Source of the DNA: Apophysomyces variabilis
Taxonomy: Eukaryota > Mucoromycota > Mucoromycetes > Mucorales > Mucoraceae
Length of the DNA: 64,000 bases
Reading direction: 5' to 3'
Assembly: GCA_002749535.1 (NCBI GenBank)
Contig: MZZL01000409.1
Coordinates: 3,840,775 to 3,904,774, forward strand
A model generated the notes under the pieces. It was not told the origin of the DNA. It worked only from the letters and a program-made list of their open reading frames with translations, and did not search any database. The translations under genes and the position numbers were made by a program. Shown here piece after piece: positions 35,550 to 41,298 of the stretch. Numbering within the stretch: the stretch's first letter is position 1; each line of letters opens with the position of its first letter.

Positions 35550-35697
35550 GACTATCTGAAAGGGGAAGGAAGCGTAAGAAAAGACTGATTCGGTATCTGA
35601 ACTCTAAAACTCCTCTGTGACTCAAATAAAGCGTTAAAATTGTTTCTCAGTCTCAGAGTACCTGTTTCTCTTACCTGAGGCATAGGTCCTGATAACT

Positions 35698-35714
35698 CCT
35701 GTCATAGCGACAGG
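35698..35714. other. Perfect short hairpin in the Fanzor 3' flank
   Basis: CCTGTC and GACAGG pair over a 5-nt ATAGC loop, about 150 bp beyond the Fanzor stop codon. Fanzor guide (omega) RNAs are usually encoded near the end of the ORF or in its flank, so structured RNA here is of interest, but a single 6-bp stem is weak evidence. Confidence 0.3.
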
Positions 35715-35865
35715 TCCCGGTTCTCTCAACCTTCATTGTCATAAGAACTATTATCGCAAGGGCAGAACTACTACTTACTCTTCACAGAGCTTCCGAGAAG
35801 AATTCACGCACCTTTAACGTCAGGACACATGATGAATACGCAATAATTATTTGATAGAAGCCGAC

Positions 35866-38800
35866 TTACCAAAAATTGGTGGCGCCGGGAACAAACGGTT
35901 TTCCAGCCGAGAATATGCTGGGGTCAAATGGGGTCAACGTGCTTCTGTTTGCTGATAGGATGTTACTGGCAGATGCCAGACCTATTGCTACAGCCGCTTG
36001 AACATCTCTGTTTTGCGTGGCATGGCCGGACTGGTACGCCGGACAGCAGGGGTTTACGCATTGTGAGGCACCGTTTACTCTCACAGTCTTCCACTGTCTG
36101 CTCTTTCTTCGCCGTGCTTTAGCTCGTTCAACTCGTTCAAAACAGTAGACGCATAACTGGGAACTTCTGTGTTCATTGGTCATGGATACAGGCACATATC
36201 GGCGATGACGTTTACGGAGCCATTTTCCCCCTCGTTTTAAATGTCCTTTCAGACGTAGACCGACTCCAGTTCCTTGAGTGCCGATGGCCATAATCGGTAA
36301 AGCCTTTTGGCGCCCATCGGTCTGTGTCGTCGCTGCAGCCTTAATAAACTTGCGCTCTTGGGCGGCCACTTGATCATAGATGCGATCCGTATACAGTTTT
36401 TGTGTGCGCTTTTCATGCTCTGCCCGATTCGAATGATAGAAAGCTCGCAATTCTCTTCGGCAGTTCCTCTTTACCTACATGTATGTTATTATGAGTTAGA
36501 GGCAGAAGGAAGCCGAAGGATAATACCGCTTGCGACTCTAAAACTTGCTCCACCGTGGTTGCTGAGGCGGATGATCTTTTCGATAGCGTCTTCTCTGCAC
36601 TGATAACCGCAGGGTTATTCTAAAGACAAAGTGAGTCAACCTAAAACTTAGCGGCTATCTTTATCATACCTTTTTCCTCCTCTCTCTTTTTTTGCGAAAA
36701 CTCCTACATAAGGTTTTCTCCTCCAGATAACCAGCTGTGATTCTCATCGGCTTAGGAAGCGTAGACATTTCTTTAGGAATAGACACAGGCGTCTGCCCGT
36801 CACCAAATTGGCGATTATACAGGTCGAAATGTAGACGAGCGCGTTCCATAGTGACCGGCACCGTTGTCGCCAAAGTCCTCAAGCCATAGTCCGTTCCGCC
36901 AAAAGTAATAGTCTTCTTGGGATCCTGCTTGACTTCTTGATGCAGCTCTGAGATGTCCAGAAACTCTGTATTGGCTTCGCAACCTGGGCGATTCCAACTC
37001 GCAACTTTACATAGCTTAGTCTCCTGTTCTTGTTCATCATCTTTTGGTTTCGTCTCTTTGTTCGTTTGTTGCTTCTTCAGAATATCCAGCTGCTATAGTT
37101 TCGTTTATTTTCTTGTTTAGCTAATGCATATGATATTCTTCACTTACCTTCTGATATATGTATCGCAGTCTTCGTTGATCCGCGAGCTGTGACCTTATCT
37201 TGCTTAGTTCAGATTGGCTCTTTGCGCGCTCGAGTTTAGCCGCCTTTAAATCTTTATATATGTCGGTCTGTTTCTGTTTCGCTCTGGAATCATAGATATC
37301 GAATTTCTCACTCTTACGCTTATCGCGGACTTTTCTTCGAGCTACGTCCTTGCTTCTCCGATAACTCTCCATTCGGCTTTCGACGACTTCCTCCCTCTGC
37401 CGCAACGCGTTTTTTATCTGCTTTTCAGCCGACTCCAGAGCTTTCACCCTCTGTTTTGCATCTTCTAATGAGCATGTAATATTGGCGATGTCTAAGCCGG
37501 ATTTATCTTCAAATTGACTACTTGCGCTATCTGCACGCTTTCCTTTCGACTTTTTCTTTCTTTCTTCGTAGTGAGAAGTATCTATAACCCTCCCTTTTTT
37601 TACATCACCGTCAATCACGGCCATTTGATGAGGTGTAATGGTGATTCGCCACCGCGGTTCCAAACCTCGAGTATTGCAAATATGCTTAACTTTTTCTTGA
37701 TCAAAGAAGGAACCAATCACAGCAGATTTGTTCGTACGAGCTTCTCTGATATTGTCGATTGTGCTTCCATCTTCTTTGTATAGATTGAACTTTGCAGAAT
37801 TGGAACCAAACATCTCATACATGGACGCCGCATCGAGAGGTAGAGCATGGATTGAGGCAGGGCTGATAGTTGGGCAGATATTTGCAGTGAACTTGGAATA
37901 TCCTGTCGCATGAAGAATCGCATTTGATAACAAAACAAATCGCAAACGAAGAGATATTGCGCTGCTTAATCGACCTTTCGGCACGTATGGTCTAAGTGCG
38001 TTTGCAAGTTTCACGACGATATCTATCTCGACCTTCTGGAGCTCATCGTTGTCGTTCCATATATCCGACACATCACTAGCTTGTACGTTCCCGTCGATGT
38101 CTGTTGACAGCAGTAGTTTCTTGGTGATAGCTTGGATTCTTATCAACCTTCTTCTGCTGGGTTCTTTCTTCAGTGTCTTTATCTCAACTTCTTCCAACTC
38201 GTCCTGTGCCTCTTCGATCGCTGTTTCTATCGTCTCTTCGATTTCTTCATCATCCATGACACTGATATCGGCTGAAATAGCTAACTTGTCCATATCGCCT
38301 CTTGCCTAATTGACGTTTGTTCAGCTCATATATCAACGTTATGACAAGTAATTCTCACCTCTTCATCTTTTTGATGTGGCTGGTTATCAGCCTTTTTAGG
38401 CCTGTACTTTTCCTTTGCCTGTTTCTCCAGTCGTCTGATTGCTTCGACGCATGACTTCTTCCGCTGCAAAAGATTGGCTCTTTGATTCCCATCCATTTCT
38501 ATTCCCAAGCGCTTCTCCAGCCGTCGCAAACTTTTGCGTTCTTGTTTTAGTCTACCTTTTATCTTGCGTCTGCGCCATTCTTTTTTTCTCCGCATCGTTC
38601 TGGAGCTCTCTTCCCGCTGCTTTTCCTTTTCTTGTAGTTTTTTCTCGGTAATTTCCTGAATCTTCTTTTCTCGTTCAGAGGCAAGATTGATCCTGAGCAG
38701 GATACGAAGCAAGTGATTAATTGATTTGTGGAATAATCCGCCTGCCCACATGTTCTGCAGGTCTGTGGCATACTGCTTCAACTGGAAGTGCATGACGGTG

Positions 38801-39849
38801 CTTAAGCCTGCAGGTGGTTTTGGCAAGTCCTTCAAGCCTTGGTGCTGTAAGGAAGACCAGAAAGATTTTCCTTGAGCTTTGTAGCTTTGTCTTCCAAAAT
38901 AGTCTGAATGAAGGAACTGTAGATGTGCTTCGGTAAAGAGGTTTAGGAATTCGTCATTGTGTTTTTTCGGCAAAGCTTTTACATAATTCTTGATGTTATC
39001 AGGCATTGGGGCCACAGCTATTGCCAATTCTGAGTTCAAAAGTTCTGGATGTCGAATCCACTCTTCATGTATGACATCCAAAACATTAAATGTCTTGCCA
39101 TCTTGTTGATAGTGCGCTTGCTTTGACTCTGCATCCAAGACTACCGAGCCGGATGCGTACTTGAGCATGGTTGCATGTACTGCGGTTCCCAGCTCAGAAG
39201 CGTAGTTGGTGGCCTGTTCGGATGTGATAGCAATGGTCTCAAGAAATGTCTGCTTCACTTGATTGTCAAGGTCTTCTCGTAAGATTTTTGATAATCTAAC
39301 GGAACATGTTCGTATTATTTCTTTTTCCTCTTTACTGTCGTCATTCACAGTAACTTCTTTGCTGGAACCAGCTTCTTCTACTTCTCCGTGCTCCTCAAGT
39401 CTCGCCCGTGCTTCCGCCACGGCGTCATTGAAATGAGCTGCAGCGTAATCTCTCCAAAGCTTGCCGATTGATGCTGGCTCAGGATAGTGAAAACAGAGGG
39501 TTCTACGAATCGTTCCCCGTGTTACATTTATTGAGTCATCGGCTTGCTCGAGTGAAGTTCTTGGGACACGATCCGCTTTCTCTAAACGCGTTCGTAGCTC
39601 TTGCAGGATTTTGTTGGTTTTTGCTTGTTTTTCAACTTCTGACTGAAATCTCGCTTTCTTTGCCGTGTTTTTCCTTGGTTTATCCTCAAGTTCTTTTGAA
39701 ATGATTGTAACTAACTGGTTCTGAAACACGTCGTGCAAGGCTTCAATCGCCTTGTCCAAGGATATATTTGATTGAATTACTCTCTTTCTTTTGCGTTTGT
39801 TTTCTCGTATTTGCGGGTGCGGTACTTGCATGGCTGACAAACGGAACAT
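35866..39849 (-). CDS. Fanzor (eukaryotic TnpB-like RNA-guided nuclease), about 1257 aa
   Basis: Five minus-strand exons (39849-38359, 38305-37148, 37092-36670, 36619-36527, 36474-35866), all phase 0, give an uninterrupted 1257-residue protein. The C-terminal third holds a split RuvC domain: FGGTDYGLRTLATT (first Asp near residue 951), TNEHRSSQLCVYC (Glu near 1156, leading into the zinc-finger Cys pair), a second Cys set (QCVNPCC), then NRDVQAAVAIG (last Asp near 1212). Spacing and motifs match the TnpB/Fanzor family. The first 880 residues are largely helical and Lys/Arg/Glu-rich, with RRKKEWRRRKIKGR as a possible nuclear signal. Known Fanzors cut DNA guided by an omega RNA and ride on transposons. 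No transposase or clear terminal repeats are seen here. The two long first exons might instead be a separate gene; the phase fit argues for one. Confidence 0.85.
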
Positions 39850-40823
39850 GTTTTGTTAGTTCAGTTTATGTACATCTCATTCAACGGGAATTCACCTCAA
39901 ACAACGAAAATATTGTTATCATAAGAGAAAGAGCAGTGTAACAATTTCAGTTGTCAATTGGTGAAGTCAGTTCGGCATGATGATCTTGTAACTAGTCTAT
40001 TTTTAGATGAGCAACTCTGACTGGATAAACATTTGAACAAAGAAGTTTCAGGTCTTTTATGTATAGTCATTTGAGGAGGAAACTGAAAATGCATAAAAGC
40101 CAAGGCACAGGACAGCAGAAAATGTTATAATCATTCGTAGGATCAGCTGCAAATGAACCAACAATTAATCTCTGGTCGACTCCAGCTACGAACTTTCTTC
40201 TAATAGTATCAGGTTATGGTATTCAAGACCATGATTAACCTTCATGACTCTGACATTGTATTCAGATCATTGAGTTAGAGTACCGGTGCCTGTCTGAGAT
40301 ATAATTACCAAATCATTAACACATGAACTTGTCTGATTCATCCCTGCTGTATTATCTCACGATCGTAGTTCTTATCATATCTATTCAGATATGGAATATA
40401 CCAAGTATTGTACTAAAGTATCAACCATATTTTAGCCTGGTTATCACTCTACTGTTGTCCATTCTATCAGAATTCGACAGAAGAGATGATTTCCCTCTGG
40501 ATCTCACTCCGCTTGAGTCTCAGGACTGAGGGAATACCCACTCGGTAATTTTAGCCGGACCTCCATTCAAGTCCGGACAGCCCGGTCGTGCATTGTTCTC
40601 CACACACCGTTCAAAGATGAACGTTCCCTTTCTCATCCGCTTTGGTGTAATATCGTAAGGTAAGGAAGCAAAACATTAGAGAAAATTAGTATGCAAGAAA
40701 GGATGGATGGATCTAACCTTCGACGGATGATTATGATTTACCTTTATTTTGCTTTGCCTCTATCAACTTCCATCGATAAAAAAATTATTCGACTGCATTC
40801 CAACATTGTCAATCTACACAGCA
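39850..40823. other. Region between Fanzor and eL34 genes
   Basis: Contains both divergent promoters. A probable 5' UTR intron of the eL34 gene (AAG|GTAAGG at 40660 to CACAG at 40821) lies at the right end. A CCGGAC/GTCCGG hairpin with a 10-nt loop is at 40555-40576. No convincing terminal inverted repeat of a transposon was found. Confidence 0.4.
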
Positions 40824-41298
40824 ATGGCTCAAAGACTCACGTACAGACGCCGCCTTTCCTACAACACCCGTTCCAACCGTGTTCGTGTCGTCAAGACCCC
40901 CGGTAAGCTTTGAAAAGAAAAGAGAAGATAAGTAAATGTTCGGATGGAAAACTTACGGGGGTTATTCTATTTTAGGTGCCAAGTTGGTCTACCAGTACGA
41001 GAAGAAGCCTGTGAAGGCTCCTCGTTGCGGTGACTGTGGTGAGACTCTTCAGGGCGTAAGTATACGCAATCAGAATGAATTAGGAAAGAGAAAAAAACAA
41101 ATGGCTGACGAATCTGTTCGATTCTAGATCAAGGCTCTTCGTGCCCGTCAGTTCGCCAACATCTCCAAGACCCAGAAGTCTGTCAGCCGCTCCTATGGTG
41201 GATCCCGTTGCGCTCACTGTGTCCGCAACCGCATTGTTCGTGCTTTCTTGATCGAGGAACAGAAGATCGTCAAGCGTGTGCTCAAGGCCCAAAAATAA
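40824..41298 (+). CDS. RPL34: 60S ribosomal protein eL34, 109 aa
   Basis: Three exons (40824-40902, 40976-41055, 41128-41298) give 109 residues. The start [19 protein letters not shown] is highly conserved, and zinc ligands are present as CGDC and CAHC. The C terminus is basic ([19 protein letters not shown]). It is a structural protein of the large cytosolic ribosomal subunit. A likely 5' UTR intron ends two bases before the start codon, as in many fungal ribosomal protein genes. Confidence 0.96.

Follow-up and report, generated by a model that had tools for sequence, protein, structure and literature searches.

A minus-strand gene at positions 35866..39849 of a 64,000-nucleotide window (the whole stretch of DNA analysed, from contig MZZL01000409.1 of the fungus Apophysomyces variabilis) encodes, as judged from its sequence, a member of a giant, recently active Fanzor1 subgroup with an additional N-terminal region, for which we infer guidance by RNA. 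The protein is about twice the usual Fanzor size and its DNA cutting is probably RNA-guided. We consider it likely that this Fanzor1-type nuclease with its large extra N-terminus is the only recognised gene of a recently amplified element, and that it works by omega-RNA-guided cutting.

The gene comprises five exons: exon 1 (39849-38359, residues 1-497) holds the N-terminal extension; exon 2 (38305-37148, residues 498-883) holds its end and then the probable start of the Fanzor core near residue 650; exon 3 (37092-36670, residues 884-1024) carries RuvC-I with D951 in a DYG motif; exon 4 (36619-36527) encodes residues 1025-1055; and exon 5 (36474-35866, residues 1056-1257 plus the stop) carries E1156, the zinc finger C1163/C1166/C1194/C1199 and R1211-D1212. 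The introns (53, 55, 50 and 52 nucleotides) are all GT-AG and all in phase 0, and the product has 1257 residues. The nearest database protein, EC973_007782 of Apophysomyces ossiformis (Mucorales; P0002 here), has the identical four joins, starts at M7 and differs by three substitutions across the shared length. As residues 730 and 885, two of these three, vary in none of the 12 genomic copies of the element, P0002 probably comes from another assembly.

The genome also holds a sister family of giant Fanzors, family B (L051, L052 and others), which supports the same structure. It has 38-59% amino acid identity to the window element's family (family A) by exon, is represented by 15 N-terminal exons, belongs to an element of more than 6.5 kb, and shifts its reading frame at each of the four intron positions; both splice sites could be read for introns 1 and 4 and the donor for intron 2, while intron 3 is placed from the frame change alone. 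Between the families, the proportion of nonsynonymous differences (pN) lies well below that of synonymous differences (pS) in exons 1, 2 and 5, with pS saturated: 0.42 versus 0.83 over 478 codons of exon 1, and 0.29 versus 0.89 over 198 codons of exon 5. These values are signs of purifying selection between families A and B. Thus the five phase-0 exons and 1257 residues proposed in the first-pass annotation hold up as a real gene rather than a chance reading, given the joins in P0002, open frames under this exon structure in 12 of 12 genomic copies, the frame changes in family B, and pN below pS. ATACTG was considered as the right end of family B and dropped, as the sequence common to two B copies ends earlier.

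The end of the protein may lie elsewhere. The P0002 model has no stop at 35866; it splices from 35870, where exon 5 then ends, via three further introns through possible exons 6-8 (35811-35779, 35730-35675 and 35620-35604, minus strand), and adds 34 residues. Counted from the ATG of the first-pass annotation, this longer model gives 1291 residues, with its stop 13 bp from the right end of the element. The stop at 35866 may therefore sit inside an intron donor and not be the true protein end; both models are predictions from DNA sequence. At the position corresponding to exon 6, a possible intron and a similar exon can be made out by eye in family B (CVQSS versus CVNSS). Three GTAAG donors also stand in the supposed 3' noncoding part of the gene (35604-35870, minus strand), a segment that may be intron-exon sequence and guide-RNA sequence at once.

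Assignment to Fanzor1 is supported by the catalytic and zinc-binding residues. D951, E1156, D1212, C1163, C1166, C1194 and C1199 stand where the full split RuvC set and zinc-finger cysteines had been placed, and all 12 sequences aligned have them; in SpuFz1 the residues aligned to E1156 and D1212 are E541 and D606. The published Fanzor motif, D-X(125,275)-[TS][TS]XX-[C4 finger]-X(5,50)-RD (PMC3627910), is matched by D951, 207 residues, S1159 S1160 Q L C1163..C1166..C1194..C1199, 11 residues, and R1211 D1212. Fanzor1 proteins have the catalytic glutamate moved to six residues ahead of the zinc finger (PMC10711439), and six residues separate E1156 from C1163, a spacing equal to that of SpuFz1 in the alignment. 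DPG at RuvC-I is reported 'near exclusively' in Fanzors (PMC10711439); here the motif is D951-Y-G, with DYG in 11 of 12 aligned sequences and DRG in P0016. SpuFz1 itself uses D383 and N385 (PMC10432273), that is D-x-N, so DPG is a tendency rather than a definition. Size is likewise descriptive for Fanzor1: most members have 600-700 residues and some up to about 800 (PMC11423790, PMC10711439), against 1257 or 1291 here.

Profile and fold comparisons place the C-terminal part with the Fanzors. The Pfam TNB profile matches the window protein at 9.1-9.3 bits against a cut-off of 26.3; a match above this cut-off is no requirement for Fanzor1. Whole-protein scans against Pfam and NCBIfam named nothing and recognised no recombinase, and weak matches to DUF2963, Synaptobrevin and PE-PPE were dismissed as below cut-off. 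The predicted model of a Mortierella relative, with RuvC and TNB folds, has Fanzor structures as its top Foldseek matches. The second is PpFz1 of Parasitella parasitica, which we take to belong to the same fungal order as the window's host. As for WED and REC domains, which in Fanzor1 precede RuvC, the span of the model aligned to SpuFz1, known by its first and last residues, starts at model residue 199 (chain residue 27), where model confidence is middling, and this point is equivalent to about residue 650 of the window protein. On this basis the Fanzor core probably runs from about 650 to 1240, and not 940-1220. The expectation that a search of the C-terminal domain would place it in the TnpB/Fanzor family was thus borne out by weak profile match and fold. 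Most Mortierella relatives (P0004, P0006-P0011, P0014) have a CxxC..HH..C insert between RuvC helices, possibly an extra zinc finger; the window protein has none.

The gene lies in a mobile element of about 4.96 kb (35591..40551, minus strand) with 12 genomic copies at unrelated sites. The 11 others are 99.80-99.96% identical to the window copy over 4.93-4.98 kb, one of the 12 showing a small gap at left. If about 60 leftmost and 20 rightmost alignment columns are set aside, 8 sites carry substitutions, six of them coding and five protein-changing. The left terminus (40543..40551) reads AAATTACCG in the window copy, AAACACCGAATGGG in L047 and R-AAATACCG-AGTGGG in the other 10 copies, with a purine as the preceding base in 12 of 12. 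The right terminus is ATACCG (35591..35596) in 11 of 12 copies, where ends read ...CAGATACCG before unrelated, unique host sequence, and ATACCA in L044; ATACCG stands at both element ends. Of 397 first-look candidates, 40 were scored; among these, 23 of the 24 flanks matched only themselves, and no match spanned the joined flanks of any of the 12 copies as an empty site would. Twelve copies with fixed ends and unrelated flanks indicate a mobile element. Left ends (window 40460-40551 and others) vary by small deletions between short repeats CTCAGTCCTGAGACTCAAG, CTCAGACTCAAG and CTCAAG, and the rest is nearly invariant. L044 alone has a flank, the left one, within a dispersed repeat (L064-L069; 92-94% identical in the 16 matches listed) that ends near CACAGTAAAT; as it ends at about the insertion point, it was rejected as an empty site.

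How the element moves bears on a competing view, in which it is of recombinase type (Crypton-like or of an unknown class), Fanzor is a passenger, and ATACCG is the core of site-specific recombination. We hold this to be a serious possibility, yet the less probable one. It would fit ATACCG at both ends and the lack of any terminal inverted repeat (TIR) or variable target site duplication (TSD) at the ends of the 12 copies. Two Fanzor elements of Mucor circinelloides, MCi-2 and MCi-5, are similar in that no TIRs can be recognised; a constant 6-bp TSD is putative for MCi-5, and part of a Crypton transposase is present in MCi-2A (PMC3627910). However, no recombinase was recognised in the element: all other frames of at least 80 amino acids fall inside the gene's span, and neither a second gene nor a transposase was found. 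As the left-end sequence occurs in the genome only in these 12 copies, no transposase-bearing partner sharing it was seen either. For a Crypton, the tyrosine recombinase is likewise unrecognised in the element, and non-autonomous members would lack one anyway.

Turning to the N-terminal region, residues 1 to about 640, the same sequence recurs widely enough to indicate an ancestral trait of a clade. It is collinear in 8 of 11 aligned relatives, the three without it being short models (P0003, P0006, P0008), and likewise in family B, whose frame changes fall at matching points. Long Mortierella-group relatives (for example P0004, P0007, P0009-P0011 and P0014-P0016, all hypothetical or unnamed) are homologous over the full length and keep the catalytic and zinc residues. 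Searching the genome with exon 1 gave 84 places at E <= 0.01 (12 of family A, 15 of family B and 57 others, some of them decayed element copies). Six of the 57 have a Pfam TNB match 1.8-2.8 kb 3' on the same strand. Five of these six have nearly equal spacing and are likely to be copies of a single family; the six together suggest that one or two more Fanzor families, at least, share this layout. Pfam TNB itself matched 73 sites in the genome at E <= 0.001, not all of which reach the curated cut-off; these do not include the window gene. In four of eight TNB loci (L002, L003, L004, L006) the pattern of ordinary Fanzors, DE[YF]..TS..C..C....RD, could be read; the other four had been read in the wrong direction.

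Because the N-terminus recurs in relatives, in family B and at further places near TNB matches, we judge it unlikely that transposon capture or a wrong gene model has joined a Fanzor to a protein unrelated to it, with residues 1-640 a separate functional unit. Some observations would suit such a fusion: profile scans recognised no domain in residues 1-640, the span aligned to SpuFz1 begins after them, and the database model of one relative, P0017, carries PF13358, which we take to be a DDE transposase domain. The exon 1 model, predicted together with 16 other rows, consists mostly of helices, a long one spanning 351-448, and matched no solved structure at E <= 0.001; its mean confidence (predicted local distance difference test, 62.5) is too low for calling its fold new. 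Of the two readings offered by the first-pass annotation, the subgroup of unusually long Fanzors is therefore favoured over the fusion. Its very long extra region stands, but not the figure of about 880 unrelated residues, as the SpuFz1-aligned span starts near 650. Five relatives (P0009, P0011, P0014, P0015, P0016) have a further N-terminal domain ahead of the shared extension, with no Pfam match there; an OTU-protease-like domain, suspected by eye in some Mortierella relatives, was not confirmed on a check of seven proteins. It is improbable that the N-terminus of about 640 residues is itself a mobility module and the element a self-contained, site-specific, RNA-guided eukaryotic transposon; one protein would then both move the element and cut empty sites using the element's own RNA. 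Finally, the open frame with introns and the signs of purifying selection might recall a domesticated host Fanzor gene with segmental duplicates, an explanation to which we give almost no weight, as it is already contradicted by 12 copies with sharp ends and unrelated flanks, 23 of the 24 flanks matching only themselves among the 40 of 397 candidates scored.

Older remnants of the element bear on the nuclease and guide-RNA reading that we prefer. The right end occurs 11 more times in the genome (L053-L063) at 76-91% identity, and these decayed copies are 73-83% identical to family A over the 3' part fetched. Read further upstream, L056 (with L071) and L059 (with L070) have 1.75 kb in common at 81%, in which pieces of the 5' region of family A and the first ~58 codons of exon 1 are fused to the last ~100 codons. 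Six of the 11 (L055, L056, L057, L059, L060, L061) show protein matches to exon 1 immediately 5' of the 3' part, and L053 is a seventh with the same junction by alignment; seven of 11 thus share an internal deletion from about residue 58 to about residue 1158. Across eight decayed copies compared in 30-nucleotide steps (L054, L062 and L063, the most diverged or short, were left out, and alignment A4 omits L062 and L063), pairwise identity is 0.86-0.89 over about 35660-35749 and 0.62-0.85 elsewhere in the element, and falls from 0.77 to 0.33 at its end (0.33 beyond). The 3' end is thus kept best and ends at the element edge, as predicted for a guide-RNA gene.

The putative guide (omega) RNA region is 35591..35780 on the minus strand, inside the right end of the element; the first-pass suggestion of 35560-35866 is thereby narrowed, with the guide role itself still a prediction. 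For the 170-nucleotide 3' end the predicted folding energy is -42.5 kcal/mol (z -1.8, equalled or bettered by 8 of 200 shuffles), and that of family B gives z -1.6 (9 of 200). The conserved peak includes a hairpin, CCTGTC-GCTAT-GACAGG (35698..35714, minus strand), whose family B version, TCCGTC-GCTAT-GACGGA, keeps the loop and differs at both members of two base pairs; 16 of 500 shuffles reach this. In Rfam the sole match, to snoZ30, was weak: 22.9 bits compared with 50.

Under the mechanism we propose, RNA from the last ~190 nucleotides of the element (35591-35780) would fold as an omega RNA whose 3' end runs past ATACCG into host DNA, the flank acting as guide. The protein from about residue 650 on would bind this RNA and, to the left of the target, a short motif (predicted as ...ATACCG or part of it), and the rearranged RuvC site (D951, E1156, D1212) would cut DNA. 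With the guide taken from the right flank and the motif from the left, the target of each copy would be the empty version of its own site, and cutting there would favour repair by which the element is restored or copied. For movement itself the element would depend on a recombinase or transposase acting in trans, and the ~640-residue N-terminus may be an accessory lobe binding RNA, DNA or a partner. Several observations weigh against this account. The fold match to Fanzors is weak in numbers; a terminal sequence required by a transposase would show the same 3'-end conservation, and part of the conserved 3' end (35675-35730) is exon in the longer model. Additionally, the best fold of family B's own sequence lacks the hairpin, and the covariation term of the consensus fold (+0.12) gives no support overall.

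The element sits about 272 bp upstream of an apparent gene starting at 40824 and points away from it; from its translation, by eye, this gene presumably encodes ribosomal protein eL34. An aspartic-protease-like gene (also by eye) lies on the other side. One scan of viral contigs found no relative of the protein.

The biological role of Fanzors is unknown (PMC10432273). Twelve near-identical open copies, decayed deleted copies and defined ends offer a direct test of whether a Fanzor aids the spread of its element, with a guide and an empty site predicted separately for each copy. The element may thus be a natural example of an RNA-guided cutter that is still mobile. A clade of proteins predicted to have 1257-1497 residues, from the Mortierella group and from Mucorales, would widen the size range described for Fanzors and would supply natural accessory domains on an RNA-guided nuclease. 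Within the literature searched, which excludes bioRxiv and most subscription journals, 'Fanzor' never appears alongside 'Mortierella', 'Apophysomyces' or 'N-terminal extension'; such reports may be in print elsewhere.

Among described systems, SPu-1 of Spizellomyces punctatus, which encodes SpuFz1, shares the Fanzor1 type, rearranged catalytic glutamate, zinc finger and RD (PMC3627910, PMC10432273). It too is a one-gene element with many copies, together with gene-less copies that keep the ends and RNA region: 134 such 'ghost' loci are reported in its host (PMC10432273), and our seven deleted copies resemble them. In contrast, the SPu-1 protein has 633 residues, and nothing in it aligns with the N-terminal ~640 of the window protein; SPu-1 is bounded by 33-bp TIRs, with putative TA TSDs, whereas the window element has ATACCG at both ends, introns, and DYG at RuvC-I. 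PpFz1 is likewise a Fanzor1, but is noted for an insertion of about 100 residues in RuvC and not for an N-terminal extension (PMC11423790). MCi-2 and MCi-5, likened to the window element by description and not by sequence, are mucoralean elements with no recognisable TIRs and with constant or patterned short end repeats, and MCi-2 copies are very similar (99% in the 3' 6 kb); unlike the window element, some MCi elements carry other transposase genes (PMC3627910). The long Mortierella-group proteins combine whole-length homology with the same catalytic and zinc residues, differing in the further N-terminal domain of some and the RuvC insert of most.
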